A DNA stretch of 64,000 nucleotides, taken from the NCBI RefSeq assembly GCF_009193175.1, contig NZ_VUKE01000018.1, positions 1 to 64,000 on the forward strand, written 5' to 3'. Position numbers and translations under genes: made by a program. Shown here in pieces: positions 1 to 19,404 of this stretch (the first letter of the stretch is position 1; every line of letters starts with the position of its first letter). Origin of the DNA: Georgenia ruanii (GTDB lineage: Bacteria; Actinomycetota; Actinomycetes; Actinomycetales; Actinomycetaceae). A model generated the notes under the pieces. That model made no database searches and was not told the DNA's origin. It worked only from the letters and a program-made list of their open reading frames with translations.

Positions 1-1319
1 CCGGGGATGACGAAGGCGCTGTTGAGCTCCTCGGCGCTGACCACCTCCGCGATCGCGACGGCCGCCACCCGCAGCATCTCGTCGGAGATGTACGAGGCCC
101 CGGCGTCCAGCAGCCCCCGGAACAGCCCCGGAAAGGCCAGGACGTTGTTGATCTGGTTCGGGTAGTCACTGCGCCCGGTGGCCACCACCGCCGCGGTCTC
201 CCCCGCCTCGATCGGGTCGACCTCCGGGGTCGGGTTGGCCAGCGCGAACACGATCGCCCCCTCGGCCATCCGCGCCACGTCCGCCCCGGTCAAGATGTTG
301 CCCGCCGAGACCCCGATGAACACGTCCGCACCCACCAGCCCCTCCTGCAGCGAGCCGGTGAACCCCTCCTCGTTGGTGTGCTGAGCGATCCAGTTACGGT
401 ACTCATCCCCGTTGACCTCACCGCGGTGCAAGGCCCCCTGACGCCCGAAGCCCACGATGTGCCGGGCCCCCTGGGCCTTGAGCAGCTTGATGATCGCCGA
501 CCCCGCAGCACCGACCCCGGAGACGACGATCCGCACGTCCTCCATCTTCTTGTCCACCACCCTCAGCGCGTTGAGCAGCGCCGCCAGCACCACGATCGCC
601 GTGCCGTGCTGGTCGTCGTGGAAGACCGGGATGTCCAGCTCCTCGCGCAACCGCGCCTCGATCTCGAAGCACCGCGGCGCGGAGATGTCCTCCAGGTTCA
701 CGCCCCCGTACACCGGCGCCAGCGCCTTGACGATGCCGATGATCTCCTCGGTGTCCTTGGTGTCCAGGCACACCGGCCACGCGTCCACGTTCGCGAACTG
801 CTTGAACAACGCCGCCTTGCCCTCCATCACCGGCAACGCCGCCGCCGGGCCGATGTCCCCCAGCCCCAGCACCGCCGTGCCGTCGGTGACCACCGCGACC
901 GTGTTCCGCTTGATCGTCAACCGGCGCGCGTCCTCGGGCTTCTCCGCGATCGCCAGGCACACCCGCGCCACCCCCGGGGTATACGCCCGCGACAGGTCCC
1001 GCCGGGTCTTCAACGGCACCTTCGCGTTCACCTCGATCTTCCCGCCCAGGTGCAACAAGAACGTCGAGTCGCTCATCTTCAGCACCCTGACCCCCTCCAG
1101 GGCATTGAGCGCCTCGACGATCCGGTCGCCGTGCTCGGCATCGACCGTGTCGCACGTGACGTCCACGACCAGCTTCGTCGTGGTCGAGTGGGCGATGTCC
1201 ACCCCCATCACCGCCCCGCCCGCCTCGGCCACCGCCGCGACGAGCATGCTCGTGGCACGCTGCGAGGCAGGCACCTCCACGCGCATGGTGATGGTGTAGC
1301 TAGGGCTGGGCATGGCCAT
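1..1319 (-). CDS. NAD-dependent malic enzyme with ACT domain, copy 1 (3' end cut by window)
   Basis: Decarboxylates malate to pyruvate in the cytoplasm. The visible 439 codons are identical to the start of the complete copy at 7059-8486; about 36 C-terminal codons lie outside the window. An N-terminal ACT-like domain (about residues 8-85) precedes the malic enzyme domain (YTPGVARV, HDDQHGTAIV) and a Rossmann NAD domain (SGVGAAGSA). The ATG at 1319 has a GAAAGG ribosome site upstream. The gene is divergent from the IclR regulator, and the shared intergenic region carries a variant of the inverted repeat found at the purine-catabolism promoters here. This suggests that this copy, unlike copy 2, is co-regulated with urate degradation. 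Family assignment is firm; the regulatory reading is inference. Confidence 0.9.
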   Translation of the reverse strand, partial: MAMPSPSYTITMRVEVPASQRATSMLVAAVAEAGGAVMGVDIAHSTTTKLVVDVTCDTVDAEHGDRIVEALNALEGVRVLKMSDSTFLLHLGGKIEVNAKVPLKTRRDLSRAYTPGVARVCLAIAEKPEDARRLTIKRNTVAVVTDGTAVLGLGDIGPAAALPVMEGKAALFKQFANVDAWPVCLDTKDTEEIIGIVKALAPVYGGVNLEDISAPRCFEIEARLREELDIPVFHDDQHGTAIVVLAALLNALRVVDKKMEDVRIVVSGVGAAGSAIIKLLKAQGARHIVGFGRQGALHRGEVNGDEYRNWIAQHTNEEGFTGSLQEGLVGADVFIGVSAGNILTGADVARMAEGAIVFALANPTPEVDPIEAGETAAVVATGRSDYPNQINNVLAFPGLFRGLLDAGASYISDEMLRVAAVAIAEVVSAEELNSAFVIP

Positions 1320-1321: not shown

Positions 1322-1359
1322 CGGGTCGTCCTTTCGACTGACAGCGACTTTCGACATGT

Positions 1360-1373
1360 GGAAGAATCTTTCT
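1360..1373. promoter_or_regulatory. Putative IclR-family operator, site A (variant)
   Basis: GGAA-N6-TTCT, one base off the GGAA-N6-TTCC core seen at three other purine-gene promoters in this window. It lies between malic enzyme copy 1 and the iclR gene, 58 bp before the iclR start, where it could control both. A CTTTCGAC octamer also occurs twice nearby (1331-1338 and 1348-1355). Confidence 0.5.
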
Positions 1374-1431
1374 GTGCGCCGCGTCGGGCGCGCAGTCCCG
1401 CCGGGCGAGCCCGGCACGAGGGAGGCGAAGC

Positions 1432-2178
1432 ATGGCGGATGGCGTGCAGTCCGTGGACCGGGCGATCGACCTGCTCGAGATCATGACCGACCTCGGCGGC
1501 GACGCAGCGCTCAGTGAGCTGGCCACCAGCTCGGGCCTGCCGCTGCCGACGATCCACCGCCTCATGCGCACGCTGGTCCTGCGCGGCTACGCCCGCCAGC
1601 TGCCCTCGCGCCGCTACACCCTGGGCCCCCGGCTCATCCGTCTGGGCGAGAGCGCGGGCCGGCAGCTCGGCGCCGGGGCCAAGCCGCACCTCGAGCGGCT
1701 GGTCCGCGAGCTCGGCGAGTCCGCGAACCTGGCGATGATCGACCGGGACATGGCGGTCTACGTCGCTCAGGCCTCCTCCCAGCACTCGATGCGCACGTTC
1801 ACCGAGGTCGGCCGGCGGGTGTACTGCAGCTGCACGGGCGTCGGCAAGGCGGTGCTCGCCCAGCTCCCCGACACCACCGTGCGCGAGATCGTCGGCCGCA
1901 CCGGCATGCCGGCGGCCACCGACCGCTCCATCACCGACCTCCGCACGCTCCTGGACGAGATGGCGAAGGTGCGGGACCAGGGGTACGCCGTCGACGACGG
2001 CGAGCAGGAGATCGGCGTGCGGTGCTTCGCGGTGCCGGTCCCCCACGCCCCGACGCCGTCGGCGCTGTCCATCTCCGGGCCCGCCGCCCGGGTGTCCTTC
2101 GAGTTCGGCGAGCAGGCCCTGCCGCTGCTCCACGAGATCGCCGGCCACATCTCGGACGAGCTCATCACCGCCCGCTGA
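1432..2178 (+). CDS. IclR-family transcriptional regulator
   Basis: A 248-residue DNA-binding regulator. The N-terminal winged helix-turn-helix (about residues 5-60, with the LSELATSSGLPLPTIHRLMRT helix pair region) is followed by an IclR effector domain (about 75-245). The ATG at 1432 follows a GGGAGGCG ribosome site. The gene sits between the malic enzyme copy and the urate operon, in the position of AllR/HpxR-like regulators of purine and allantoin use. The most likely targets are the CGGAA-N6-TTCCG sites at 1360, 4212, 6027 and 14448. The ligand is unknown; by family analogy it could be glyoxylate, allantoin or another ureide intermediate. It is probably autoregulated from site A. Confidence 0.88.
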   Translation: MADGVQSVDRAIDLLEIMTDLGGDAALSELATSSGLPLPTIHRLMRTLVLRGYARQLPSRRYTLGPRLIRLGESAGRQLGAGAKPHLERLVRELGESANLAMIDRDMAVYVAQASSQHSMRTFTEVGRRVYCSCTGVGKAVLAQLPDTTVREIVGRTGMPAATDRSITDLRTLLDEMAKVRDQGYAVDDGEQEIGVRCFAVPVPHAPTPSALSISGPAARVSFEFGEQALPLLHEIAGHISDELITAR

Positions 2179-2181
2179 GAG

Positions 2182-2199
2182 GGCGGCGCGGGCGCCGCC
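2182..2199 (+). terminator. Hairpin just after the iclR stop
   Basis: Perfect 7-bp arms GGCGGCG/CGCCGCC with a 4-base loop start 3 bases after the stop codon, with no T-run. A longer-range inverted repeat (CACCATCG at 2240-2247, CGATGGTG at 2268-2275) follows, between the convergent iclR and uricase genes. Confidence 0.5.
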
Positions 2200-2311
2200 G
2201 GTCGGGTGTCCTCCCCCGGCCCCGCCGCGCCGTCCGGGACACCATCGGGTGCACCACCGCCAGGACGCGATGGTGGTCATGTCGCGCTCCTTGGTGTCGG
2301 ACGGCTCCCGG

Positions 2312-3271
2312 TCAGCAGAACCCCGTCACGGTCGCCCAGGCACGCGGCTCGGGGGTGACGTCGGAACGCTTCACCTCCGCCTCGATGAGCCCGTAGGGCC
2401 GGTCCGCGGCGTAGAACACCTCCTTCGGGTTCTCCAGCCCGAACGGGGCGAGGTCCACGAGGAAGTGGTGCAGGTTCGGCATGGAGAACTTGATCTCCCC
2501 GATCTCCGGGTGGGTCTCCAGGACCCGCTTGCCCATCTGGTACAGCGTCTGCTGCAGCGCCAGGGAGTGCACGTCCGCGAAGGTCTCGAGCATGACCCGC
2601 CGCACGTCGTCGTAGGCGGCGTTGAAGTCGATGTCGGTGGTGGTGTAGCGCCACCGGGCGGTGACGGAGGTCGCGAGGATCCGGTCGTCCGTCTCCACCA
2701 GGGTGGTGTACCGGTCGCGCGGGAAGCCGTGGAACTCCGAGCCGGTGGACTTCAGCACCGAGAGGTCCTCGAGGCCGGCGACGACGAAGACGTCGTCGCC
2801 GTCGCGCTGGACGACGGCGGTGCGCGTCTCGGTGCCCGCCTTGACGAAGGCATGGTCGTGCTCGCCGTCGGAGGCGTTGGTGGTCAGCGAGGTCGGGATG
2901 TGCTCCCAGGTGTACTCCTTGACCTCCCACCGCCCGCCGGTGACCCAGTCGAAGGAGGAGGTGAAGTGCTCGGCCAGCCGCATCGCGAACTGCTCCGGGG
3001 AGCCGACGCCGTCCTTGGCGAGCGCGAAGATCGTGTTCTTCTGCGTGTCGGTGGCCACGACCGGGGAGTTGTCACCCTGGGTGTGGGCGACCGTGAAGTC
3101 CCCGCGGAGCTGGGAGGTCACGGACAGGTCGGTGATGCGGTGGCGGGGCTTGTCCCGGTCGACCTTGACGACCCGGACCTCGGCCTTGCCGTACTGGTTG
3201 TCGCCCAGGACGATCGCACCGTCCTGGCCCGCCTCGGAGGCGGGGGCGGGGGTGGCGATGGTGTCGCTCAT
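2312..3271 (-). CDS. uox: Urate oxidase (uricase)
   Basis: Cofactor-free enzyme that oxidises urate to 5-hydroxyisourate, the first step of urate breakdown. The 319-residue length fits the family. Recognisable blocks are YGKAEVRVVKV with the catalytic Lys, VATDTQKNT with the active-site Thr, FHGFPRDRYTTL with the substrate-binding Arg, SLALQQTLYQMG with the conserved Gln, and FSMPNLHHFLVDL near the C-terminus. It ends GFC, with no peroxisomal signal, as expected in bacteria. It is the last gene of a three-gene operon, uraD-hiuH-uox, 71 bp after hiuH, which places all three enzymes from urate to (S)-allantoin under one promoter. Confidence 0.96.
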   Translation of the reverse strand: MSDTIATPAPASEAGQDGAIVLGDNQYGKAEVRVVKVDRDKPRHRITDLSVTSQLRGDFTVAHTQGDNSPVVATDTQKNTIFALAKDGVGSPEQFAMRLAEHFTSSFDWVTGGRWEVKEYTWEHIPTSLTTNASDGEHDHAFVKAGTETRTAVVQRDGDDVFVVAGLEDLSVLKSTGSEFHGFPRDRYTTLVETDDRILATSVTARWRYTTTDIDFNAAYDDVRRVMLETFADVHSLALQQTLYQMGKRVLETHPEIGEIKFSMPNLHHFLVDLAPFGLENPKEVFYAADRPYGLIEAEVKRSDVTPEPRAWATVTGFC

Positions 3272-3342
3272 CTTCTAGCTCCTTCGATAGGTCGTGCGAC
3301 GGGTTGCGGGTCGGTGGGCTGGCGGCGAGGCGCCCGACCCGG

Positions 3343-3681
3343 TCAGCTGCCCCGGTAGGTGGAGTAGGCGAACGGGCTGAGCAAGATGGGGACGTGGTAG
3401 TGGTCCTGCCCCTCCTCCACGCGGAAGTCGATGGTGACCTGGGGGTAGAACGTCGGCCGGCCGGCGGCGGCGAAGTACTCGCCGGTGGCGAAGACGAGGC
3501 GGTAGGTGCCCGGCTCGAGCACGGCGGGGCCGAGCTCGCGGTTGCGGCCGTCGGCGTCGGTGCGGCCGGTGGCCACCTCCGCCAGCCCGTCACCGGCGTG
3601 GCGGGACAGCGTCAGTCCCACGCCGGCGGCCGGGACCCCGGCGACGGCGTCGAGGACGTGGGTGGTGATGTGGGACGTCAT
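3343..3681 (-). CDS. 5-hydroxyisourate hydrolase (transthyretin-like)
   Basis: Hydrolyses 5-hydroxyisourate, the uricase product, to OHCU. The 112-residue protein begins MTSHITTHVLD, with the conserved N-terminal His, and ends in the YRGS tetrapeptide that separates HIU hydrolases from true transthyretins. GTYRLVFATGEYF and HYHVPILLSPF are further family blocks. The ATG at 3681 overlaps the uraD stop by four bases (ATGA), so the two are translationally coupled. A longer open frame runs upstream of this start, but it is antisense to the permease and not coding. Confidence 0.95.
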   Translation of the reverse strand: MTSHITTHVLDAVAGVPAAGVGLTLSRHAGDGLAEVATGRTDADGRNRELGPAVLEPGTYRLVFATGEYFAAAGRPTFYPQVTIDFRVEEGQDHYHVPILLSPFAYSTYRGS

Positions 3682-4181
3682 GCGAGCTCCTTCTCGAGGC
3701 GGAGGACGGCGATCTCCCGCAGCTGCTCGGCGGCGATGCGCCGCTCGGTCGCCGGGTCGTGGGTGAGGCGCTCCTCGAGCGCGGCGAGGATCTCCGCGGC
3801 GCTGCGGCCCGCGGCGCGGACGAGGAAGACGTGGCCGAACCGCGCCTCGTAGGCGGCGTTGCCCTCGCGCAGCCGGCGGGCGACCTCCGGGTCCGTGCCG
3901 TCGACGGCGGCCTGCTCCCGGCGGGAGTGCGCGGCGTCGGCGTCCGCGCCCTGCGGGCGTTCGCCGATGCGCGGGTGGCGGGCGAGGGCGGCGTCCACCT
4001 CCTCCTCGCTCCAGGGCTCGGCGGCCGCGCGCGCCGCGACCAGTGCGGTCTCGACGTCGGCGTAGGGTCGGCGCTGGACGATCTCCTCCGCCCAGCGCGG
4101 CACCGCGGCGCAGGTGAGCAGCAGCGCCCGGGCCTCCCGCGCGTCGGCCTCGTTGAGCCGCGCCAGGCCGGTGAGCGTCAT
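3678..4181 (-). CDS. uraD: 2-oxo-4-hydroxy-4-carboxy-5-ureidoimidazoline (OHCU) decarboxylase
   Basis: Decarboxylates OHCU to (S)-allantoin, completing the urate-to-allantoin route. At 167 residues it matches stand-alone UraD proteins. The HPRIGERP block with the catalytic His (about residue 69) and FGHVFLVRAAGRSAAEIL near the C-terminus are typical. It is the first gene of the urate operon, and a CGGAA-N6-TTCCG operator lies about 30 bp upstream of its ATG. It overlaps hiuH by four bases. Confidence 0.95.
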   Translation of the reverse strand: MTLTGLARLNEADAREARALLLTCAAVPRWAEEIVQRRPYADVETALVAARAAAEPWSEEEVDAALARHPRIGERPQGADADAAHSRREQAAVDGTDPEVARRLREGNAAYEARFGHVFLVRAAGRSAAEILAALEERLTHDPATERRIAAEQLREIAVLRLEKELA

Positions 4182-4211
4182 TCTCGACTCCCTCGTCGCT
4201 GTTTCGTATCG

Positions 4212-4227
4212 CGGAAGTGGCTTTCCG
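4212..4227. promoter_or_regulatory. Putative IclR-family operator, site B (urate operon)
   Basis: CGGAA-N6-TTCCG, a perfect 5-base inverted repeat upstream of uraD. It has the same arms and spacing as the sites before the permease and xdhA. Its closeness to the start codon would suit repression. Confidence 0.65.
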
Positions 4228-4334
4228 TTCTAGAAAGTAGACCCTGGCGTCACGAGGCCTGTCAAGACGCTGCGGCGACCCCCGCGGCGACCCCCATTCG
4301 GACCGTCGCGTCGCGCCGCGGCGGGCACGGCGGC

Positions 4335-4372
4335 GGGCGCCGCCCCGGGCCGAGAACCCCGGGGCGACGCCC
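4335..4372 (-). terminator. Strong hairpin downstream of the permease gene
   Basis: Two 15-base arms (4335-4349 and 4358-4372) pair with one mismatch around an 8-base loop, 22 bases after the permease stop. It separates the permease transcript from the urate operon on the same strand. No T-run is seen. Confidence 0.6.
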
Positions 4373-4394
4373 ACCGGACCGCGCGGCCGCTCGG

Positions 4395-5891
4395 CTAGGC
4401 CCGCTCGGGCGCGGCCACCCGGTCCGGCCCACCCTGCGGGACCAGGGGAACCTCGCGGCCCTGGGCGTCGACGAGCCGGCCGCCCTCGACGCGGTCCCCG
4501 TCCTCGAGCACCTCGAGCAGCTCGGGGCTGACGTAGCGCGCCCCGCGCGCGACGAAGACCGAGGACTGCGGGGCGTTGCCCGCGCGGAGCACGTTGAAGA
4601 CGAGGTTGAGCAGCACCGCCATGATCGCCGCGGAGCTGATGCCGGAGTGGAAGATCGTCACGAACCACGCCGGGAAGCCCTCGTAGAAGCTCGGGGAGAC
4701 GATCGGGATCATGCCGAAGGCGAGCGAGCTGGCCACGATGACGAGGTTCATGTTGCCCTCGTAGTCGACCTTCGCCAGCGTCCGGATGCCGCTCGCGGCG
4801 ACCGTGCCGAACAGGACGATCCCGGCCCCGCCGAGCACCGGCGTGGGGACCGCCGCCACGAGCCGGCCGAGGACCGGCAGCAGGCCCAGGACGACCATGA
4901 TGACGCCGCCGGCGCTGACGACGAAGCGGCTGCGGATCCCGGTGATGGCGACCAGGCCGACGTTCTGCGCGAAGGCCGTCTGGGTGAAGGAGTTGAACAC
5001 CGGCGCCACCGCGCTGGAGAGCATGTCCGCCCGCAGCCCGTCGGCGATGCGGCGGGAGCCGACCTTGGTGCGCACGATCTCCCCGACGGCGAGGATGTCG
5101 GCGGTCGTCTCGGTCATCGTCACCAGCACGACGATCGTCATCGAGATGATCGCGGCGATCTCGAAGTGCGGCATGCCGAAGGCGAACGGCGTGGGCACGG
5201 CCACCACCGCGCCGTCGCCCACGCCGGAGAAGTCGGCCATACCCAGGGCCGCCGCCACGAGCGTGCCGACGACGATGGCCAGGAGGATCGAGAGCCGCGA
5301 GACGGCGGCGATGCCGACCTTGCTCAGCACGAGGACGACGACGAACGTCAGGGCGGCCAGCCCGATGTTCGCGGGGCTGCCGTACCCCTCGGCCTGAGGG
5401 TTGCCGCCCAGGGTCCAGCTGGCCGCGACCGGCATGAGCGTCAGCCCGATCGTGGTGATGACGACGCCGGTGACCACCGGCGGGAAGAACCGGATGACCT
5501 TGGCGAAGAAGGGGGCGAGCACGAGCCCGACGAGCCCGGCGACGAGGACGGCGCCGAAGACCGCCGGCAACCCGCCGCCGCTGGCGAGGATCGCCAGCAT
5601 GGTCGCCACCCCGGCGAACGAGACGCCCTGGACGAGCGGCAGCTGGGACCCGAAGAACGGCACGCCCCAGCTCTGCAGGATCGTCGCCGCGCCGCCGACG
5701 AACAGCGCCGAGGCGATGAGGACGGCGATGTCCGGGCCCTGGAGCCCGGCGGCGGTCCCGACGATGAGCGGCACGGCGATGATCCCGCCGTACATCGTGA
5801 GCACGTGCTGCAGCCCGTACACGAAGGAGCGGGCGACGGGCAGCCGCTCGTCCTCGGGCCGCGCCGCCGTGGTCGTGGTTCGACTTGCCAT
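4395..5891 (-). CDS. NCS2-family purine (urate/xanthine) permease
   Basis: A 498-residue membrane transporter of the nucleobase-cation symporter-2 family, with about 12-14 hydrophobic segments between residues 20 and 440. The block QSWGVPFFGSQLPLVQGVSF and the conserved acidic TETTADILAVGEI segment are family hallmarks. Its place between the urate operon and an operator of the same kind (site C) suggests import of urate or xanthine for the enzymes encoded beside it; the exact substrate cannot be read from sequence. It is transcribed separately from uraD, with a hairpin in between. Confidence 0.9.
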   Translation of the reverse strand: MASRTTTTAARPEDERLPVARSFVYGLQHVLTMYGGIIAVPLIVGTAAGLQGPDIAVLIASALFVGGAATILQSWGVPFFGSQLPLVQGVSFAGVATMLAILASGGGLPAVFGAVLVAGLVGLVLAPFFAKVIRFFPPVVTGVVITTIGLTLMPVAASWTLGGNPQAEGYGSPANIGLAALTFVVVLVLSKVGIAAVSRLSILLAIVVGTLVAAALGMADFSGVGDGAVVAVPTPFAFGMPHFEIAAIISMTIVVLVTMTETTADILAVGEIVRTKVGSRRIADGLRADMLSSAVAPVFNSFTQTAFAQNVGLVAITGIRSRFVVSAGGVIMVVLGLLPVLGRLVAAVPTPVLGGAGIVLFGTVAASGIRTLAKVDYEGNMNLVIVASSLAFGMIPIVSPSFYEGFPAWFVTIFHSGISSAAIMAVLLNLVFNVLRAGNAPQSSVFVARGARYVSPELLEVLEDGDRVEGGRLVDAQGREVPLVPQGGPDRVAAPERA

Positions 5892-6335
5892 CCGTTGACC
5901 TCCTCGTCAACCGGCCCTCGGGCCGCATCGATGTGTGCCTGCCGCGCCGGGGGGCGGACGACCCCCGCTGGTCCGCCTCGGAAGGGCCCACGTCACGCCG
6001 CCACCTCCGGCAGCGTTTCCGTGATGTGGAACACATCTTCCGAGCAGGCGCGGTCAACGTAACCGGCCCGTGGGGCCGCGTCAAGGGGCCGGTCCCGGCC
6101 CCGAGGCCTCTCCGTCGGTCGCACGGGCCGGCCCTGCGCCTGCTCCACGGGTGCGACGACCCGGGACCTTCGCCCCGCCGTCGCCCCGGCCGCCGCGAGG
6201 TCGCGACGGGACGCCGCCGCGTCGGGACGTAAGCCCCAGGAACCGGACATTGCGGGCGGCCATGCTTGAGACCAAGGAGCTCAACCCGAGCCCGACACGG
6301 AGCAAGGTCGCTCCACCACTGCTCACAAGGAGAGC
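5892..6335. promoter_or_regulatory. Divergent intergenic region, permease / DoxX gene (444 bp)
   Basis: There is no credible gene here. It contains operator-like site C 136 bp before the permease start, and an AAGGAG ribosome site just before the DoxX gene at 6336. I could not assign -35/-10 boxes with confidence. Confidence 0.5.
6027..6042. promoter_or_regulatory. Putative IclR-family operator, site C (permease)
   Basis: TGGAA-N6-TTCCG, matching the CGGAA-N6-TTCCG pattern at nine of ten arm positions, upstream of the permease gene. A second overlapping half site, TTCC at 6017-6020, precedes it. Confidence 0.6.
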
Positions 6336-6899
6336 ATGATGGCCACCTCATTCGAGCACCGCACCGCGGGCACCACCCCTCGCCCGGCAGCCCGGTACCA
6401 GGAAGAGCTCGTCACCGCCCCCGCGGCCCGCAGGGTGCTGGCCGCCGGCCGCATCATCATCGGCTGGGTGTTCCTCTGGGCCTTCCTCGACAAGCTGGTC
6501 GGCCTGGGCTTCATGACCACGGCCGACAAGGCCTGGCTCCACGGCGGCACCCCGGCCCAGGGCTTCATCAAGGGCATCGAGGGCCCGTTCCACGGCGTCT
6601 TCCAGGTCTTCGCCAACCCGTTCGGCGACACGCTGTTCATGCTCGGCCTGCTCGGGATCGGCGTCGCGATGATGCTCGGCGCCGGCCTGCGCATCGCTGC
6701 CGTGACCGGCACGCTGCTCCTGCTGTTCATGTACCTCGCGGAGCTGCCCCTGGCGATCGGCGGCACCAACCCGGTCGTCGACTCCCACTGGATCGAGGCG
6801 ATGCTGCTCATCATCTCCGCGGTGACCCTCTCGGGCGACACCTGGGGCGTGGGCAAGTGGTGGGCCGGCGTCATCGGTAAGAACACCTGGCTGCGCTGA
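6336..6899 (+). CDS. DoxX-family membrane protein
   Basis: A 187-residue protein with about four transmembrane helices (residues near 35-55, 90-110, 115-135 and 150-165) and the DoxX-type pattern LAAGRIIIGWVFLWAFLDKL at the first helix. DoxX proteins are small membrane components linked to sulfur or quinone redox chemistry in some bacteria; the role here is unknown. The ATG at 6336 follows AAGGAG; a second ATG comes one codon later. It is monocistronic, and ends before a 30-base perfect palindrome shared with the convergent malic enzyme gene. No purine operator precedes it directly. Confidence 0.8.
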   Translation: MMATSFEHRTAGTTPRPAARYQEELVTAPAARRVLAAGRIIIGWVFLWAFLDKLVGLGFMTTADKAWLHGGTPAQGFIKGIEGPFHGVFQVFANPFGDTLFMLGLLGIGVAMMLGAGLRIAAVTGTLLLLFMYLAELPLAIGGTNPVVDSHWIEAMLLIISAVTLSGDTWGVGKWWAGVIGKNTWLR

Positions 6900-6966
6900 C
6901 CGACGCCGCCCCCTCGGGCGGCCGACTCGGAGACCCGGCCCGTCCCGGGCGCCCGACACCATGACC

Positions 6967-6996
6967 GAGGCCCTGGTCCGATCGGACCAGGGCCTC
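6967..6996. terminator. Bidirectional hairpin between DoxX and malic enzyme copy 2
   Basis: A 30-base perfect palindrome (arm GAGGCCCTGGTCCGA) lies between two convergent genes, 68 bp after the DoxX stop and 63 bp after the malic enzyme stop. It can serve both. Confidence 0.75.
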
Positions 6997-7058
6997 AGTC
7001 TCGAGACGACGGCGCATGCCTTCTTCAGCCCCGGGGGGCCGGCGTGGCGCCGCCGCCG

Positions 7059-8486
7059 TCAGGCGGTGACGGCCTCCTCGGCGGCGCCGGCCTGCTCGGC
7101 GAGGTACTTCTCGGCCTCCGCGCGCACGGCCTCGGCGACGGCCTCGGCGACGCGGTGGTCGAACACGCCGGGGATGACGAAGGCGCTGTTGAGCTCCTCG
7201 GCGCTGACCACCTCCGCGATCGCGACGGCCGCCACCCGCAGCATCTCGTCGGAGATGTACGAGGCCCCGGCGTCCAGCAGCCCCCGGAACAGCCCCGGAA
7301 AGGCCAGGACGTTGTTGATCTGGTTCGGGTAGTCACTGCGCCCGGTGGCCACCACCGCCGCGGTCTCCCCCGCCTCGATCGGGTCGACCTCCGGGGTCGG
7401 GTTGGCCAGCGCGAACACGATCGCCCCCTCGGCCATCCGCGCCACGTCCGCCCCGGTCAAGATGTTGCCCGCCGAGACCCCGATGAACACGTCCGCACCC
7501 ACCAGCCCCTCCTGCAGCGAGCCGGTGAACCCCTCCTCGTTGGTGTGCTGAGCGATCCAGTTACGGTACTCATCCCCGTTGACCTCACCGCGGTGCAAGG
7601 CCCCCTGACGCCCGAAGCCCACGATGTGCCGGGCCCCCTGGGCCTTGAGCAGCTTGATGATCGCCGACCCCGCAGCACCGACCCCGGAGACGACGATCCG
7701 CACGTCCTCCATCTTCTTGTCCACCACCCTCAGCGCGTTGAGCAGCGCCGCCAGCACCACGATCGCCGTGCCGTGCTGGTCGTCGTGGAAGACCGGGATG
7801 TCCAGCTCCTCGCGCAACCGCGCCTCGATCTCGAAGCACCGCGGCGCGGAGATGTCCTCCAGGTTCACGCCCCCGTACACCGGCGCCAGCGCCTTGACGA
7901 TGCCGATGATCTCCTCGGTGTCCTTGGTGTCCAGGCACACCGGCCACGCGTCCACGTTCGCGAACTGCTTGAACAACGCCGCCTTGCCCTCCATCACCGG
8001 CAACGCCGCCGCCGGGCCGATGTCCCCCAGCCCCAGCACCGCCGTGCCGTCGGTGACCACCGCGACCGTGTTCCGCTTGATCGTCAACCGGCGCGCGTCC
8101 TCGGGCTTCTCCGCGATCGCCAGGCACACCCGCGCCACCCCCGGGGTATACGCCCGCGACAGGTCCCGCCGGGTCTTCAACGGCACCTTCGCGTTCACCT
8201 CGATCTTCCCGCCCAGGTGCAACAAGAACGTCGAGTCGCTCATCTTCAGCACCCTGACCCCCTCCAGGGCATTGAGCGCCTCGACGATCCGGTCGCCGTG
8301 CTCGGCATCGACCGTGTCGCACGTGACGTCCACGACCAGCTTCGTCGTGGTCGAGTGGGCGATGTCCACCCCCATCACCGCCCCGCCCGCCTCGGCCACC
8401 GCCGCGACGAGCATGCTCGTGGCACGCTGCGAGGCAGGCACCTCCACGCGCATGGTGATGGTGTAGCTAGGGCTGGGCATGGCCAT
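7059..8486 (-). CDS. NAD-dependent malic enzyme with ACT domain, copy 2 (complete)
   Basis: The complete 475-residue twin of the gene at 1-1319. Domain order is an ACT-like segment (about 8-85), the malic enzyme N-terminal domain with YTPGVARV (about 110) and HDDQHGTAIV, and the NAD-binding domain with SGVGAAGSAIIKLL. The C-terminus is Ala/Glu-rich. Start MAMPSPSYT at 8486 follows GAAAGG. Its upstream region is unrelated to that of copy 1 and has no GGAA-N6-TTCC site, so it probably serves general metabolism. It lies downstream of gatB on the same strand, with a hairpin between. Confidence 0.95.
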   Translation of the reverse strand: MAMPSPSYTITMRVEVPASQRATSMLVAAVAEAGGAVMGVDIAHSTTTKLVVDVTCDTVDAEHGDRIVEALNALEGVRVLKMSDSTFLLHLGGKIEVNAKVPLKTRRDLSRAYTPGVARVCLAIAEKPEDARRLTIKRNTVAVVTDGTAVLGLGDIGPAAALPVMEGKAALFKQFANVDAWPVCLDTKDTEEIIGIVKALAPVYGGVNLEDISAPRCFEIEARLREELDIPVFHDDQHGTAIVVLAALLNALRVVDKKMEDVRIVVSGVGAAGSAIIKLLKAQGARHIVGFGRQGALHRGEVNGDEYRNWIAQHTNEEGFTGSLQEGLVGADVFIGVSAGNILTGADVARMAEGAIVFALANPTPEVDPIEAGETAAVVATGRSDYPNQINNVLAFPGLFRGLLDAGASYISDEMLRVAAVAIAEVVSAEELNSAFVIPGVFDHRVAEAVAEAVRAEAEKYLAEQAGAAEEAVTA

Positions 8487-8488
8487 GA
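7168..8488. repeat. Long direct repeat, copy B (identical to 1-1321)
   Basis: The second copy of the 1321-bp identical segment, covering malic enzyme codons 1-439 plus two bases before the ATG. The two copies flank the iclR, urate operon, permease and DoxX genes in direct orientation. Recombination between them could therefore delete or amplify that 7.2-kb unit. Confidence 0.95.
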
Positions 8489-8582
8489 GGCGGGCCTTTC
8501 AAAGGTGGGACGAATCACGATGAGCGGCATGAATCGTAACCCCCCGCACACCCGGGCCCCGACCCGCCACCCCCGGGACGAC

Positions 8583-8620
8583 GACGCCCCCTTCCCGGCG
8601 GCAGGCGGGAAGGGGGCGTC
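8583..8620 (-). terminator. Hairpin downstream of gatB
   Basis: Perfect 15-base arms GACGCCCCCTTCCCG/CGGGAAGGGGGCGTC with an 8-base loop, 45 bases after the gatB stop and before the promoter region of malic enzyme copy 2. Confidence 0.75.
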
Positions 8621-8664
8621 TGGAGGCTCGACCGGTGCGGTGCGAGCCCGGTGCGGTGATCGCG

Positions 8665-10170
8665 TCAGCCGATGCGTTGCATGAGGAGCTCGCGCACGCG
8701 GGCGGCGTCGGCCTTGCCGCGGGTGGCCTTCATGACCGCGCCGACGATCGCGCCGGCCGCCTGGACCTTGCCGCCGCGGATCTTCTCCACGACGTCGGGG
8801 TTGGCGGCCAGCGCCTCGTCGATGGCCGTCTCGAGGGCGCCGTCGTCGGAGACGACCTCGAGGCCGCGGGCGACGACGACCTGCTCCGGGGAGCCCTCGC
8901 CGGCGAGCACGCCCTCGAGCACCTGCCGGGCCAGCTTGTCGGTGATCCGGCCGGCGTCGACGAGGGCGGCGAGCTCGGCGACCTGCTGGGGGGTGATCGC
9001 CAGCTCCTCCAGCGCCACGCCGTCGGTCTTGGCGGTGCGGGCCAGCTCGCCCATCCACCACTTGCGGGCGGCGGCCGGGCCGGCGCCGGCGGCGACGGTG
9101 GCCTCGACGAGGTCCCCGGCGCCGGCGTTGACCAGGTCGCGCATCTCGGCGTCGGAGTAGCCCCACTCGGCCTGCAGGCGGCGGCGGCGCACGGCCGGCA
9201 GCTCGGGCAGGGTGGCCCGCAGCTGCTCGACCCACTCGCGCGGCGGGGCGAGCGGGACGAGGTCGGGCTCGGGGAAGTACCGGTAGTCCTCGGCGTCGGA
9301 CTTCACGCGCCCGGGCGAGGTGGTGCCGTCGTCCTCGTGCCAGTGACGGGTCTCCTGGACCACCCGCTCGCCGGCGTCGAGCACGGCGGCCTGGCGGGAG
9401 ATCTCGTAGCGCACCGCCCGCTCGACCGAGCGGAAGGAGTTGACGTTCTTCGTCTCGGTGCGGGTGCCCAGCGGCGAGGTCGGCGTGGGGCGCAGGGAGA
9501 CGTTGACGTCGGCGCGCACGTTGCCGCGCTCCATGCGGGCCTCGGATACGCCGAGGGCCCGGAAGATGTCGCGCAGGGTGTTGACGTAGGCGCGGGCGAC
9601 CTCCGGCGCGCGGGCGCCGGCGCCCTCGATGGGGCGGGTGACGATCTCCACGAGCGGGATGCCCGCCCGGTTGTAGTCGACCAGGGAGTACTCCGCGCCC
9701 TGGATGCGGCCCGCGGCGCCGCCGATGTGGGTGTTCTTGCCCGCGTCCTCCTCCATGTGGGCGCGCTCGATCTCCACCCGGAAGATCGTGCCGTCCTCGA
9801 GCTCGACGTCGAGGTGGCCGTCGTGGGCGATGGGCTCGTCGTACTGGGAGGTCTGGAAGTTCTTCGGCACGTCCGGGTAGAAGTAGTTCTTCCGGGCGAA
9901 CCGGCAGCTCTCGGCGATGGAGCAGTTCAGCGCCAGGCCGATCTTCACCGCGTACTCGACGGCGGTGGCGTTGACCACCGGCAGCGCGCCGGGCAGGCCG
10001 AGCGAGACGGGCGTGACGGCCGTGTTGGGCTCGGCGCCGAAGGTCTGCGGGGCGCCGTCGAACATCTTCGACCTCGTGCCCAGCTCGACGTGGACCTCGA
10101 TGCCCAGGACGGGGTCGTAGCGGGTGACGGCGTCGTCGAAGTCGACGAGGAGAGACGTCTGCGTGCTCAT
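8665..10170 (-). CDS. gatB: Aspartyl/glutamyl-tRNA(Asn/Gln) amidotransferase subunit B
   Basis: The tRNA-binding and kinase subunit of GatCAB, which amidates misacylated Glu-tRNA(Gln) or Asp-tRNA(Asn). The 501-residue protein starts [11 protein letters not shown] at 10170; longer upstream extension is not supported, because the ATG overlaps the gatA stop (ATGA). Seen are the [15 protein letters not shown] block near the N-terminus, [10 protein letters not shown], and a C-terminal YqeY-like helical tail ending LLMQRIG. It is the third gene of the gatC-gatA-gatB operon. Confidence 0.96.
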
Positions 10171-11675
10171 CGGGAGGCCACCTCCAGCTCGGGGGCCTGG
10201 GCCAGCAGCGGGCCGCCCCACTTCTCGGTGAGCAGGCGCTCGAGCACGCCGCCCACCCGGTACAGACGGGCGTCCTCGCGGGCGGGCGCGAGGACCTGGA
10301 AGCCCACCGGCAGGCCGTCGTCGCTCAGGCCCGAGGGGAGCGAGATGCCGGGGATGCCGGCGAGGTTCGCCGGGATGGTGGCGACGTCGTTGAGGTACAT
10401 CGCCATGGGGTCGTCGAGCTTCTCGCCGAAGCGGAACGCCGTGGTCGGCGCGGTGGGCGAGACGAGGACGTCGGCCTTGGCGAAGGCCTGGGCGAAGTCG
10501 CGCTGGATGAGGGTGCGCACCTTCTGCGCCGAGCCGTAGTAGGCGTCGTAGTAGCCGGCCGAGAGCACGTGGGTGCCCAGGATGATGCGGCGCTTGACCT
10601 CGTCGCCGAAGCCGGCGCCGCGGGTGGCGGCCATGACGCGCTCGGCGGTGACCGGGCCCTCGGCGGGCTCCACCCGCAGGCCGAAGCGCATGCCGTCGAA
10701 CTTGGCGAGGTTGGAGGAGGCCTCCGCGGGCATGATCAGGTAGTAGGCCGCGAGCGCGTAGTCGAAGCTGGGGCAGGAGACCTCCACGACCTCGGCGCCG
10801 GCCTGCTTGAGCAGCTCGACGGACTCGAGGAAGCTGCGGCGCACGCCCTCCTGGTAGCCCTCGCCGCCGAGCTCCGTGACGATGCCCACGCGCAGGCCCT
10901 TGAGGTCCGCGGCGCGGGCGGCGGCCACGTAACCGGTGGCCGGGTCGGTCAGCGAGGTGGAGTCGAGCGGGTCGTGGCCGCCGATGACCTCGTGCAGCAT
11001 CGCGGCGTCGAGCACCGTGCGGGTGACCGGGCCGGCCTGGTCCAGGGAGGAGGCCATGGCGATGAGGCCGTAGCGGGAGACCGAGCCGTAGGTGGGCTTG
11101 ACGCCGATGGTGCCGGTGACGGCGGCCGGCTGGCGGATCGAGCCGCCGGTGTCGGTGCCGATGGCCAGCGGCGCCTCGTAGGCGGCGACGGCGGCCGCGG
11201 ACCCGCCGCCGGAGCCGCCCGGGATGCGCTCGAGGTCCCAGGGGTTGCGGGTGTTGCCGTACGCCGAGTGCTCGGTGCTCGACCCCATCGCGAACTCGTC
11301 GAGGTTGGTCTTGCCCAGGATCGGCATCCCGGCGGCGCGCAGCCGGCTGACCAGGGTGGCGTCGTAGGGCGGCACCCAGTTCTCGAGGATCTTCGAGGCC
11401 GCGGTGGTCACCTGCCCGCGGGTGACGACGATGTCCTTGACGGCGATCGGCACGCCGGCCAGCTCGGGCAGCTCCTCGCCGGCGCCGCGGCGGGCGTCGA
11501 CGTCGGCCGCGGCGGCGAGCGCCTCGTCGGTGTTGACGTGGAGGAAGGCGTGGACGGCGCCGTCGACGGCGGCCATGCGGTCCAGGTGGGCCTGGGTGAC
11601 CTCGACGGCGGAGACGTCGCCGGCGGCGAGGAGGCCGGCGAGCTCGGCGGCGCTGCGGCGGGTCAGGTCGCTCAT
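10167..11675 (-). CDS. gatA: Aspartyl/glutamyl-tRNA(Asn/Gln) amidotransferase subunit A
   Basis: The glutaminase subunit of GatCAB, which releases ammonia for tRNA amidation. The 502 residues carry the amidase-signature Ser-cisSer-Lys triad: Lys80 in GVPIAVKD, Ser155 in [10 protein letters not shown] and Ser179 in [12 protein letters not shown]. Length is normal. It overlaps gatC and gatB by four bases each (ATGA), which should give equal subunit synthesis. Confidence 0.97.
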
Positions 11676-11971
11676 GCGTCCTCCCCGAGGATCTGCGGGA
11701 CGGCGAAGCGGCCCTCGGCGGCGGCCGGGGCCGCGGCGAGCACCTCGTCGGCGTCGAGCGTGGCCACCACCTCGTCCGGGCGCATGACGTTGGTCAGCGG
11801 GATGGGGTGGGAGGTGGCGGGCACGTCGGGCGTGGCGACCTCGTTGACCCGAGCGACCGCGGAGGCGATGACGTCGAGCTCGCCGGCGAGGCGCTCGACC
11901 TCCTCGGGCGTCAGCTCGATGCGGGCGAGCGCCGCGACGCGCGCGACCTCGTCGGAAGAGATGGTGGACAT
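11672..11971 (-). CDS. gatC: Aspartyl/glutamyl-tRNA(Asn/Gln) amidotransferase subunit C
   Basis: The 99-residue linker subunit that stabilises the GatA-GatB interface. [20 protein letters not shown] and RPDEV are typical GatC features. The start at 11971 is preceded by unrelated sequence, and longer open reading upstream is antisense noise. It is the first gene of the gatCAB operon, and the overlap ATGA links it to gatA. Confidence 0.95.
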
Positions 11972-12024
11972 ACGAGCGAGTCTAAACGTCCGCCGCCCCG
12001 CGGCGCCGGGGCCGGCGGCGTTCC

Positions 12025-12435
12025 TCAGATGGCGGCCGGCCCGATGAGCTCGAGCAGCGCCCGGGCGTAGGCGTCCGCCGCCCCGGGGGCGCGGTGCTCG
12101 ACGGCGCCCCGGCCGGGCACGGCGGTGGTGACGAGGAAGGCGCCGTCCTCGCGGCGCAGGGACCGGAAGGTGCCGCCGAGGAGCTCGCGCAGCTGGTCCT
12201 CGCGCGGCAGCCAGACCGTCTGGTCGAGCGTGACGGCGTCCAGCGCCCACTCCACGGTGCCGTTGAACCCCAGCACCGTGCCGGTGGGAAAGCGATGGGT
12301 CTCGATGCTCATCTCGGCGACCGTGAACACCTCCCCGACCAGCCCGGGCTGGTCGATGGTGAACCGGTCGCCGGACGCGGGACGCCACCGCAGCCCGGCG
12401 GCGCGCAGCGCCCGGGCGAGCTCGAGCGAGATCAC
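12025..12435 (-). CDS. Conserved hypothetical protein (136 aa)
   Basis: A small soluble protein starting at a GTG (MISLELARALRAAG), with no signal peptide or membrane segment. Proteins of this type are sometimes auto-annotated as 'pilus assembly protein CpaE', but I see no ATPase motif or pilus gene and would not use that name. It has a hydrophobic/charged alternation like a compact alpha/beta fold. It sits 53 bp upstream of gatC on the same strand, so it may share the gatCAB promoter. Confidence 0.7.
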   Translation of the reverse strand: MISLELARALRAAGLRWRPASGDRFTIDQPGLVGEVFTVAEMSIETHRFPTGTVLGFNGTVEWALDAVTLDQTVWLPREDQLRELLGGTFRSLRREDGAFLVTTAVPGRGAVEHRAPGAADAYARALLELIGPAAI

Positions 12436-12518
12436 CGGGCCAGTATCCGGTCAGGGCCGCCCGGCCGCGCGCGATCGGCTGCCGGGTCCGAGGGGCGCCG
12501 AGCCGTTAGGTTGACGCC

Positions 12519-13808
12519 ATGCCGATGAGATCACGCCTGGGGCACGCCCTCCTGCGGGCGCAGCGCATCCAGGGCCGCGACGTGTGGCGCGCCGTCCGCT
12601 GGTACGTGACGGGCACCGTGGCGGTCCAGGCCGCGGCGGCCGCCGCCGTCGTCTCGGTGGACCGGGTGCGCAAGCGGCGCCAGCCGCCCACGGGCGAGTT
12701 CCCGCGCACGCCGCCCGCCACGTTGCCGGTGGCGCACTCGACGGTGACGACCTACACCTTCGGCGCGGACCTCTACGAGGACATGCTCGCGGCCATCCGC
12801 GACGCCCGCCGCACCGTCTACTTCGAGACCTTCATCTGGAAGTCCGACGACGTCGGCCAGCGGTTCAAGGACGCGCTCCTGGCCGCCGCGCGCCGGGGCG
12901 TGGAGGTCTACGTCGTCTTCGACAGCTGGGCGAACCTCGTGGTGCCGCCGGCATTCCAGCGGTTCCCTCGGCTGCCGACCCTGCACGTCCTGCGCTTCCC
13001 GCTGGTCCGGCCGGGCCTGCTCACCCTCAACCTGCGCAAGACCGGCCGCGACCACCGCAAGATCCTCGTCATCGACGGCGAGGTGAGCTTCGTCGGCGGG
13101 TACAACATCGGCTCGCTCTACGCCACGCAGTGGCGCGACACCCACGTGCGCGTCGAGGGCCCGAGCGCGTGGGAGCTGGAGAACGCCTTCGTCGACTTCT
13201 GGAACGACCATCGCAAGCGGAGGCACCCCCAGATCCCGGACCGCGGCGCCCGGGCCTGGGAGGCGCGCATCCGCGCCGCGCAGAACGCCCCGAACCGGCT
13301 GAGCTTCCCCGTGCGCGGGCTCTACCTGGAGGCGATCGACCGGGCCGAGCACCGCATCTACATCACCCAGGGGTACTTCATCCCCGACCGCGACATCCTG
13401 CGGGGACTCGTCCAGGCCGCCCGCCGCGGCGTCGAGGTCAAGGTGCTCATCCCCGAGGTCTCCAACCACGTGCTGGCCGACTGGGCCGCCCGCGCCTACT
13501 ACACCCAGCTCCTCGAGTCCGGCGTGCAGCTGTGGCTGTTCCAGGACGCGATGGTCCACGCCAAGACCATGACGGTCGACGGGCGGTGGACCACGGTGGG
13601 CACCACCAACATCGACCGCATGTCGATGACGGGCAACTTCGAGGTGAACCTGGAGATCTACGACGACGACCTGGCCGCCCAGATGGAGAAGATCTTCGCC
13701 ACCGACCTCACCAACTCCCGCCAGCTCACCCTGCGCGAGTGGGAGTCGCGCGGGCTGCTGTCGAAGATCGGCGAGCGGATCCTGCGCCGGCTCGGCCCGC
13801 TGCTGTAG
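12519..13808 (+). CDS. Phospholipase D-like protein, probable cardiolipin synthase
   Basis: A 429-residue protein with two HKD motifs, HRKILVIDG near residue 178 and HAKTMTVDG near 347, each followed by a Gly-rich or NID segment as in bacterial cardiolipin synthases (joining two phosphatidylglycerols). An Ala-rich segment (about 28-45) may be one membrane anchor instead of the two helices of ClsA, which is closer to the ClsB form. ATG at 12519; a second in-frame ATG two codons later is possible. It is divergent from the hypothetical gene at 12025 and convergent with the acetyltransferase at 13812. Confidence 0.85.
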   Translation: MPMRSRLGHALLRAQRIQGRDVWRAVRWYVTGTVAVQAAAAAAVVSVDRVRKRRQPPTGEFPRTPPATLPVAHSTVTTYTFGADLYEDMLAAIRDARRTVYFETFIWKSDDVGQRFKDALLAAARRGVEVYVVFDSWANLVVPPAFQRFPRLPTLHVLRFPLVRPGLLTLNLRKTGRDHRKILVIDGEVSFVGGYNIGSLYATQWRDTHVRVEGPSAWELENAFVDFWNDHRKRRHPQIPDRGARAWEARIRAAQNAPNRLSFPVRGLYLEAIDRAEHRIYITQGYFIPDRDILRGLVQAARRGVEVKVLIPEVSNHVLADWAARAYYTQLLESGVQLWLFQDAMVHAKTMTVDGRWTTVGTTNIDRMSMTGNFEVNLEIYDDDLAAQMEKIFATDLTNSRQLTLREWESRGLLSKIGERILRRLGPLL

Positions 13809-13811
13809 CGC

Positions 13812-14324
13812 TCAGACCTCCAGCTCGTAGAACCACATGACCGCCGTGGGGTCCCAGGAGCCGACGTAGTCGCGGCCGGGGTTGCGCCGGTACCCCACGC
13901 GCTCGTAGAGGCGGTGCGGGATGGCCGGGCCCGCCACGGACAGCACCGACAGCACCAGTCGCGGATAGCCCTGCTCCGCCGCCCACTCCTGGGCGGCGCG
14001 CAGCAGGGCCTCGGCGACGCCGCGGCGCTGGGCGGCGGGGTCGACGGCGAGCATGCGCACCTCGAGCTCGTCCTCGCGCGCCAGGTCGGCGTAGGCGGTG
14101 CCGGCGGCGGCGAGCGTGAGCGTGCCGAGCACCTCCCGTCCGGCGCGCGCCACGAGGACGATCGCCTCGGCCGCCCGGCGGCCCACGTCGCGCAGGGCGA
14201 GGGCGTACCCGTCGTCCTCCTCCGCCATGCCGGCCGCGCGGTAGGCGGCCACGCTGAGCTCCCCGACGCGGTCGAGCTCCTCGGGACGGACGGTGGAGAC
14301 GGTGATCGAGGCGGTGTGCGGCAC
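13812..14324 (-). CDS. GNAT-family N-acetyltransferase
   Basis: A 170-residue acetyl-CoA-dependent transferase starting at GTG 14324 (VPHTASITVSTVRP). The acetyl-CoA loop is seen as VDPAAQRRGVAEALLRAA (about residues 94-111), followed by LYERVGYRR. The substrate is unknown. Its 3' end is 3 bp from that of the cardiolipin synthase gene. Its start is 124 bp from purine operator site D, with the gene facing away from xdhA. Confidence 0.85.
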   Translation of the reverse strand: MPHTASITVSTVRPEELDRVGELSVAAYRAAGMAEEDDGYALALRDVGRRAAEAIVLVARAGREVLGTLTLAAAGTAYADLAREDELEVRMLAVDPAAQRRGVAEALLRAAQEWAAEQGYPRLVLSVLSVAGPAIPHRLYERVGYRRNPGRDYVGSWDPTAVMWFYELEV

Positions 14325-14447
14325 GCGACCATTATCGCGTGGCGGCTCGCCCGTCCCGGGCCCCTGGGGACCGGCAGCTGCGGGCCCGCGGCCGGGCACC
14401 CGTGGGGACCGGCAGCGTGCGGCGCGCGGCGCCCCCAACTCCGGCAG

Positions 14448-14465
14448 GCGGAAAACTTCTTCCGC
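14448..14465. promoter_or_regulatory. Putative IclR-family operator, site D (xdhABC)
   Basis: GCGGAA-N6-TTCCGC, a perfect 6-base inverted repeat and the best version of the motif in this window. It lies 167 bp before the xdhA start and between divergent genes. Confidence 0.7.
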
Positions 14466-14631: not shown

Positions 14632-16127
<1,496 letters not shown>

Positions 16128-16131
<4 letters not shown>

Positions 16132-18560: not shown

Positions 18561-18561
18561 G

Positions 18562-19404
18562 GTGGACTGGCTCGCGGCCCTGGAGCACCTGCGCGAGCAG
18601 GGCCGCTCCGGCGTGCTCGTGACCGTCACCACCGTGCGCGGGCACGCCCCGCGCGACGCCGGGGCGAAGATGGTGGTCGCCGCCGACGGCACCTGGGACA
18701 GCATCGGCGGCGGCAACCTCGAGGCCACGGCGATCGACCGAGCGCGGGCGATGCTGCGCGACGGCGCCGAGGCGCCCGAGACGCTGCTGCTGCCGCTCAA
18801 CGAGCACGTGGCGAACCGGCACGGGCAGCAGTGCTGCGGCGGGGAGGTGACGGTGCTGCTCGAGCCGCTGCGCGCCTGGCCGACGGTGGCCGTCTTCGGC
18901 GTCGGCCACGTCGGCCACGAGCTCGCCCGGATCCTGTCCCGGCTGCCGCTCGACCTGCACCTCGTCGACAGCCGGCCCGGGCAGCTCGCCGACGACGCGC
19001 TCGCCGACGTCCGCGGCGGCCGCGCCCGGGTCCACGTCCATCCCGCCCCGGCCCCCGAGGCGGTGCTGCGCACCCTGCCTGCCGGCGCCCACGTGCTCAT
19101 CATGAGCCACGACCACGCCGAGGACTTCGTCCTGTGCGACGCCGCGCTGCGCCGCGGCGACCTCGAGGTCGGGCTCATCGGCTCCCGGGCGAAGTGGGCC
19201 CGGTTCCGCCACCGGCTGCGCGGCGAAGGCCACGCCGACGCCGCCGTGGACCGGATCGTGTGCCCCATCGGCCTGCCGGGCCTCGGCGGCAAGGACCCGG
19301 CCGTCATCGCCGTCAGCGTCGCCGCCCGCCTGCTCCAGGACCTCGAGGGCACGCCGCCGCCTGCCCCGGCGCCGGAGCGGCGCGCGTCGGCCGCGCCGGC
19401 CTGA
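18562..19404 (+). CDS. xdhC: XdhC-type molybdenum cofactor insertion protein
   Basis: Binds and sulfurates Mo cofactor and loads it into XdhB. The 280-residue protein starts at GTG 18562, one base after the xdhB stop. It has the XdhC N-terminal domain (GGGNLEATAID, CCGGEVTVLLEPL) and a Rossmann-like C-terminal domain (VAVFGVGHVGHELAR, VGLIGSRAKWARFR, CPIGLPGLGGKDPAVIAVSVAA). It is the last gene of xdhABC and ends 10 bp from the convergent ligA stop. Confidence 0.95.
   Translation: MDWLAALEHLREQGRSGVLVTVTTVRGHAPRDAGAKMVVAADGTWDSIGGGNLEATAIDRARAMLRDGAEAPETLLLPLNEHVANRHGQQCCGGEVTVLLEPLRAWPTVAVFGVGHVGHELARILSRLPLDLHLVDSRPGQLADDALADVRGGRARVHVHPAPAPEAVLRTLPAGAHVLIMSHDHAEDFVLCDAALRRGDLEVGLIGSRAKWARFRHRLRGEGHADAAVDRIVCPIGLPGLGGKDPAVIAVSVAARLLQDLEGTPPPAPAPERRASAAPA

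Follow-up and report, generated by a model that had tools for sequence, protein, structure and literature searches.

Among the closest described systems is that of AllR from Streptomyces coelicolor, which reportedly controls the allantoin and glyoxylate genes (work ascribed to Navone et al. 2015, AEM 81:6649), the repression exerted by the Streptomyces protein being said to be relieved by allantoate or glyoxylate. The present analysis concerns a 64,000-nucleotide stretch of the Georgenia ruanii genome (hereafter the window), which forms the left end of contig C9 in an assembly of 4.42 Mb and 36 contigs and was studied over about its first 20 kb. Its subject is a 25-bp operator, GGAA-N6-TTCC-N7-GRAA, placed before purine-catabolic genes and before the gene of an IclR-family protein (here the IclR protein). 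A preliminary description of the window had proposed a regulon of urate and xanthine genes centred on this protein and marked by the palindrome CGGAA-N6-TTCCG. We consider it very likely that the IclR protein, as an AllR orthologue, would bind the three-box operator of all targets and repress them until a pathway intermediate releases it.

Operators of the IclR family comprise, according to Suvorova and Gelfand 2021, (i) group 1 sites (GKTYCRYW3-4RYGRAMC), (ii) group 2 sites (TGRAACAN1-2TGTTYCA), and (iii) three-box sites. Three-box operators, such as that of PcaU, make up 32 groups (PMC8222616), and the E. coli AllR and IclR motifs display GGAA/TTCC arms separated by an inward gap of 5 (PMC8222616). 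The Georgenia operator falls into the three-box class, its GRAA-N6-TTYC (group 2) and TTYC-N7-GRAA (group 1) pairs sharing the middle box.

A three-box operator before purine genes

Within the window, GGAA-N6-TTCC occurs exactly at 4213, 6028, and 14450 and at no other place, against 0.13 expected and with none of 100 shuffles reaching three, and a fourth site, GGAAgaatctTTCT at 1360, carries one mismatch. The sites precede uraD-hiuH-uox, the NCS2 permease, xdh, and malic enzyme 1/iclR, so that the four sites of the preliminary description stand where it had placed them. Its consensus does not hold: the outer C and G are variable (TGGAA..TTCCG at site 3, TGGAA..TTCTG at site 1), and CGGAA-N6-TTCCG with at most one mismatch is found 3 times in the window against 1.77 expected, a count reached by 30 shuffles and by itself not above chance.

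The two-box core is accompanied by a third box. In an unsupervised ranking of 4-base palindromes with gaps of 0-14 over 57 upstream regions of uraD, hyi, and xdhA, GGAA-N6-TTCC came first (37/57) and TTCC-N7-GGAA second (33/57), each with 0/180 in the controls. At a gap of 7, the third box is present at 58 of 68 distinct sites before uraD, hyi, xdhA, iclR, and NCS2 in Georgenia and its relatives, and at 68 of 70 distinct sites before allB and aceB of Streptomyces-like loci. Shuffled flanks give at most 5, and other gaps from 2 to 15 give 0 to 2, except for gap 8 (6 in Georgenia and relatives, 24 in the Streptomyces-like loci), possibly an overlap effect. Before xdhA this box mostly reads GGAG, and G076 and G052 have none there.

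Across the whole genome, the strict GGAA/TTCC/GGAA pattern has two matches, before NCS2 and hyi. Allowing one mismatch yields 9 placements at 8 places, four of which are NCS2, hyi, uraD, and xdhA; the other four, each with one mismatch, are non-purine (L205 and L208 in called genes, L209, the same place as L007, in an open frame, and L211 intergenic). With up to two mismatches the pattern is at background level (63 forward versus 71 in the reversed control), and for this reason the support for operator 1 comes from its conservation, not from its score.

The two-box core alone has 15 exact places in the 4.42 Mb, compared with 6 for the reversed pattern; four are purine promoters (uraD, NCS2, xdhA, and hyi) and 11 lie elsewhere, on account of which the core was dropped as a genome-wide predictor. 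The preliminary description had named many random matches outside purine genes as a sign against the regulon, and such matches prevail for the two-box pattern but are absent from the strict three-box pattern (0/2). The exact site directly before hyi, on contig C29, adds a fifth target and bears out its expectation that a genome scan would reach glyoxylate genes, the same contig carrying allantoinase, gcl, and malate synthase. In the hyi promoter (L027:14415-14450) a fourth box stands on the opposite side, giving TTTC-N7-GGAA-N6-TTCC-N7-GGAA and making this operator nearly symmetric.

The non-purine two-box matches comprise five within called genes (L007, L009, L013, L014, L015), two copies of one repeat close to contig ends (L008, L010), and L001 (C2:84870), a perfect CGGAA-N6-TTCCG inside an open frame (1335-2261) of an AT-rich stretch; L002 and L006 complete the 11. 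At L012:1501 (G000:C31:40937), an exact two-box site without a third box stands ~22 bp before a nicotinamidase-like gene, with a divergent MFS-like gene (both named by eye). The AT-rich stretch (L001:1335-2860; G000:C2, ~84.7-86.2 kb) holds a DUF4435-like gene adjoining an ATPase-like gene, also named by eye, and by eye the two may resemble a PARIS-type defence pair.

Conservation was followed in Georgenia and its family, Isoptericola, Cellulosimicrobium, Actinotalea, and Promicromonospora, over regions that took in 250 bp upstream of each gene together with its first 20 bp. Dropped before counting were (i) the loci of twice-fetched genomes (L091, L093, L095), (ii) the distant IclR loci L083-L090, (iii) gene matches starting past query residue 30, and (iv) regions below 120 bases, a rule that removed the iclR regions of G126, G007, G065, G076, G052, G013, and one G094 copy at stretch ends. 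The Cellulosimicrobium count includes L100, labelled Sphaerisporangium, and the 12 xdhA regions include one 38% paralogue in G065. The core was found, exactly and with at most one mismatch, respectively, before uraD in 20/24 and 23/24 regions, before hyi in 10/21 and 21/21, before xdhA in 7/12 and 9/12, before iclR in 7/26 and 15/26, and before malic enzyme in 0/26 and 10/26 (both copies counted). Dinucleotide shuffling over 100 rounds gave at most one exact site per set, with means of 0.9 to 2.2 and maxima of 3 to 6 when one mismatch was allowed, and eleven control gene sets gave 0/180 at that tolerance.

The nearest named genome by its IclR protein (96% identical, among the best 80 loci) is that of G. 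thermotolerans (G126), of the same genus; its iclR site, read in L091, is present with 2 mismatches over the three boxes. The NCS2 site occurs in 2 of 12 regions, those of this genome and of G. thermotolerans, the two closest. The core also precedes xdhA genes at a distance from iclR of ~420 kb in G107 and ~500 kb in G076, and its presence at such unlinked xdh loci points to a factor acting in trans and not to local drift. Malic enzyme 2, the copy beside DoxX, has no site at its promoter in any of the six examined genomes with this copy, as the preliminary description had stated for the window; for DoxX, which it had likewise listed as lacking the site, the two sites seen in the footprint are shared uraD operators.

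The regulator and its predicted action

The protein belongs to the IclR family by its N-terminal helix-turn-helix and C-terminal effector domains, by near full-length structure matches (e.g., 1mkm, query residues 7-243, E 4e-27), and by matches to the IclR-family profiles of NCBIfam. With 18 of 28 first-look candidates scored, its own genome showed no second match at E <= 1e-30. Streptomyces proteins in the best 80 loci share 61-67% identity with it, and Streptomyces orthologues lie near allantoinase (allB) in the 12 loci inspected out of 57 Streptomyces-like ones. With at most one mismatch, the core is present in 40/55 allB and 42/47 aceB regions of the Streptomyces-like loci. In the relatives, iclR is clustered with malic enzyme 1, DUF6986, hyi, glxR, gcl, glxK, and allB. 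Both the linkage to allantoin genes and the shared operator are those of the actinobacterial AllR regulon, and identity and neighbourhood together indicate orthology of the IclR protein with Streptomyces AllR, a relationship unrecognised in the preliminary description that makes the finding less novel.

Profiles of better-known members score below their cut-offs: the E. coli AllR equivalog NF007548 gives 90.2 bits against 406, the E. coli IclR profile 130 against 380, and the BhcR equivalog NF045644, the best NCBIfam match, 167.7 against 350. The glyoxylate-oxygen-binding residues of E. coli IclR (G160, D212, S239, and S241) are kept, with A161 replaced by V, and alignment to E. coli IclR, going by Table 1 of PMC11323563, places S143, T146, V154, and V220 in the hydrophobic patch. 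Such a pocket would favour a small polar oxo-acid over pyruvate.

We propose that the IclR protein would bind GGAA-N6-TTCC-N7-GRAA (i) at its own gene and the divergent malic enzyme 1, (ii) at uraD-hiuH-uox, (iii) at the NCS2 permease, (iv) at xdhABC, and (v) on C29, at hyi, covering the genes downstream of it. Bound as dimers or as a tetramer, it would cover operators that adjoin or overlap the promoters and repress the genes, until allantoate and/or glyoxylate, the likely effectors, accumulate and release it. The outcome would be joint induction of the steps through xanthine, urate, allantoin, allantoate, glyoxylate, malate/glycerate, and pyruvate. Malate synthase condenses glyoxylate and acetyl-CoA to malate, which malic enzyme converts to pyruvate, and for this reason malic enzyme fits the regulon; gcl, hyi, glxR, and glxK constitute a parallel glycerate route. 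The footprint, with the unlinked xdh operons included, thus sustains the earlier proposal of a regulon centred on the IclR protein, with binding as its predicted element.

Several observations weigh against this model. The other 10 of 12 NCS2 regions lack the core, those genes being 41-70% identical; the core is found in 0/9 iclR or malic enzyme regions of the Cellulosimicrobium group; and G065 has no xdhA site. In addition, the operators stand 136 bp (NCS2) and 168 bp (xdhA) away from the start codon, a spacing that could suit activation, and distances vary among the targets, with 22 bp at hyi, 31 at uraD, and 40/58 at malic enzyme 1/iclR. The IclR protein might accordingly bind the same sites as an activator, or as activator and repressor depending on the promoter; at uraD, hyi, and iclR, where the sites adjoin the start codon, their position is in keeping with repression, and we regard this alternative as rather unlikely.

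A further objection comes from G094, a Georgenia relative (L174, L075, L076) whose locus has lost iclR and malic enzyme 1: two IclR proteins (77-79%) with the same recognition helix are present elsewhere, yet there is no uraD or xdhA site. Its use as a natural knock-out was rejected, and it is an exception and not a control, since the two proteins are kept. This genome is also what would speak for the operator being bound by another transcription factor, an explanation to which we give little credence, as the operator precedes iclR itself, both here and in relatives, adjoins allR in Streptomyces, agrees with the IclR-family consensus, and belongs to a pathway whose uraD gene co-occurs with the IclR protein in the family (uraD was found in 11 of 151 sampled genomes at E <= 1e-10, all 11 among the 12 with an IclR protein at least 68% identical). 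Chance palindromes in GC-rich DNA, for which the 11 of 15 exact two-box matches outside purine promoters might be cited, can scarcely account for a site conserved in relatives against 0/180 in controls and followed by a third box at a fixed gap.

Pathway genes in the window and on contig C29

The operators and the genes of the pathway in the window are collected in Table 1.

Table 1. Operators and pathway genes of the window, with the fifth operator on contig C29
Feature	Position	Strand	Remarks
Operator 1, iclR/malic enzyme 1 intergenic	1349..1373	-	AGAA-N6-TTCC-N7-GAAA; 2 mismatches vs GGAA/TTCC/GGAA
Operator 2, uraD-hiuH-uox	4202..4226	-	GGAA-N6-TTCC-N7-GAAA; 1 mismatch vs GGAA/TTCC/GGAA
Operator 3, NCS2 permease	6017..6041	-	GGAA-N6-TTCC-N7-GGAA; 12/12 bases match
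Operator 4, xdhABC	14439..14463	-	GGAA-N6-TTCC-N7-GGAG; 1 mismatch vs GGAA/TTCC/GGAA
Fifth operator, hyi	contig C29		0 mismatches vs GGAA/TTCC/GGAA
Malic enzyme 1	1..1319	-	3' end cut at contig edge; goes on in contig C29
iclR, AllR-type regulator, 248 aa	1432..2178	+	profile, structure, and identity matches
uox, urate oxidase	2312..3271	-	TIGR03383, over cut-off
hiuH, hydroxyisourate hydrolase	3343..3681	-	TIGR02962, over cut-off
uraD, OHCU decarboxylase	3678..4181	-	TIGR03180, over cut-off
NCS2 permease, scored as xanthine permease pbuX	4395..5891	-	TIGR03173, over cut-off
xdhA, xanthine dehydrogenase small subunit	14632..16131	+	TIGR02963, 443 bits, just under cut-off 467
xdhB, molybdopterin subunit	16197..18560	+	TIGR02965, over cut-off; true start maybe slightly upstream
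xdhC, accessory protein	18523..19404	+	TIGR02964, over cut-off

Contig C29 (16 kb) continues the pathway on one strand, with glcF, glcE (by eye), glcD, malate synthase A, a peroxiredoxin-like gene, allantoicase, and allantoinase, followed by glycerate kinase, glyoxylate carboligase, tartronate semialdehyde reductase, hyi, DUF6986, and the end of malic enzyme 1. The products of glcF (by 3 bits), malate synthase A, allantoicase, allantoinase, glycerate kinase, the carboligase, and the reductase exceed their NCBIfam cut-offs; glcD and hyi stay under theirs, the best match of hyi being hydroxypyruvate isomerase (228 bits versus 353). Because the last 263 bases of C29 agree with positions 1-263 of the window at 262/263, and relatives with uncut contigs display the order DUF6986-malic enzyme-iclR, the junction of C29 with C9 very probably falls within malic enzyme 1.

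The two malic enzyme copies, at 1-1321 and 7168-8488 of the window, are identical across 1,321 bp. In G126, G119, and G107 both positions are syntenic, and the copies within each genome are 97.6, 99.9, and 89.2% identical, respectively, compared with 80-92% between the four genomes; the copies undergo concerted evolution, probably by gene conversion. The purine operator stands at one copy and is missing from the other.

DUF6986 (PF22484; L027:14601-15857 on C29), whose gene is flanked by malic enzyme 1 and hyi, has a malate synthase/malyl-CoA lyase fold. It co-occurs with allantoicase in actinobacteria mostly devoid of the AllA lyase, the AllA family being absent from 92 of the 94 allantoicase-bearing genomes of the class that were examined, and in presumed Streptomyces genomes its locus, unlinked there, carries the AllR operator. 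No mention of DUF6986 was found in the literature searched. Tentatively, this malate synthase/malyl-CoA lyase-type protein may replace AllA as the missing actinobacterial ureidoglycolate lyase, or perform another glyoxylate step. The same operator marks this uncharacterised enzyme family as a member of the pathway, where it would close a gap in the purine breakdown of actinobacteria.

Comparison with known IclR-family systems

The predicted reach of a single IclR-type regulator, acting through a sharply defined operator, extends from allantoin breakdown up to xanthine oxidation, purine uptake, and urate breakdown, and down to malic enzyme. AllR-type control is already known, and the wider scope is what is new here; no paper was found that describes an IclR regulon reaching across xdh, uox, and malic enzyme, which is weak evidence since the subscription literature was mostly out of reach.

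The operator resembles the PcaU type in having three boxes of alternating direction, with one group 1 pair and one group 2 pair. With E. coli AllR and IclR the system shares the GGAA/TTCC arms, the kinship to glyoxylate-sensing proteins and, for AllR, control of allantoin genes; it differs in the gap (6 here, 5 there), in scores below the profile cut-offs, and in gene content. BhcR of Paracoccus denitrificans (PMC11323563) shares the oxygen-binding G160, D212, S239, and S241, with I at position 161 where the Georgenia protein has V (both aliphatic) and T at position 143 where it has S (both polar); unlike the Georgenia protein, which scores under the BhcR cut-off, BhcR controls a different glyoxylate route.

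In common with S. coelicolor AllR, the Georgenia regulator is an IclR-family protein encoded near allB, and the same three-box operator stands at Streptomyces allB/allR and aceB. In contrast to Streptomyces, uraD-hiuH-uox, xdh, the NCS2 permease, and malic enzyme 1 have the operator before them here as well. The Streptomyces-like loci carry the core in 0/6 uraD and 0/12 NCS2 regions, a small sample covering ~10 kb around the regulator, and on these grounds the control of uptake and urate breakdown looks like an extension within the Georgenia-Isoptericola-Cellulosimicrobium group.

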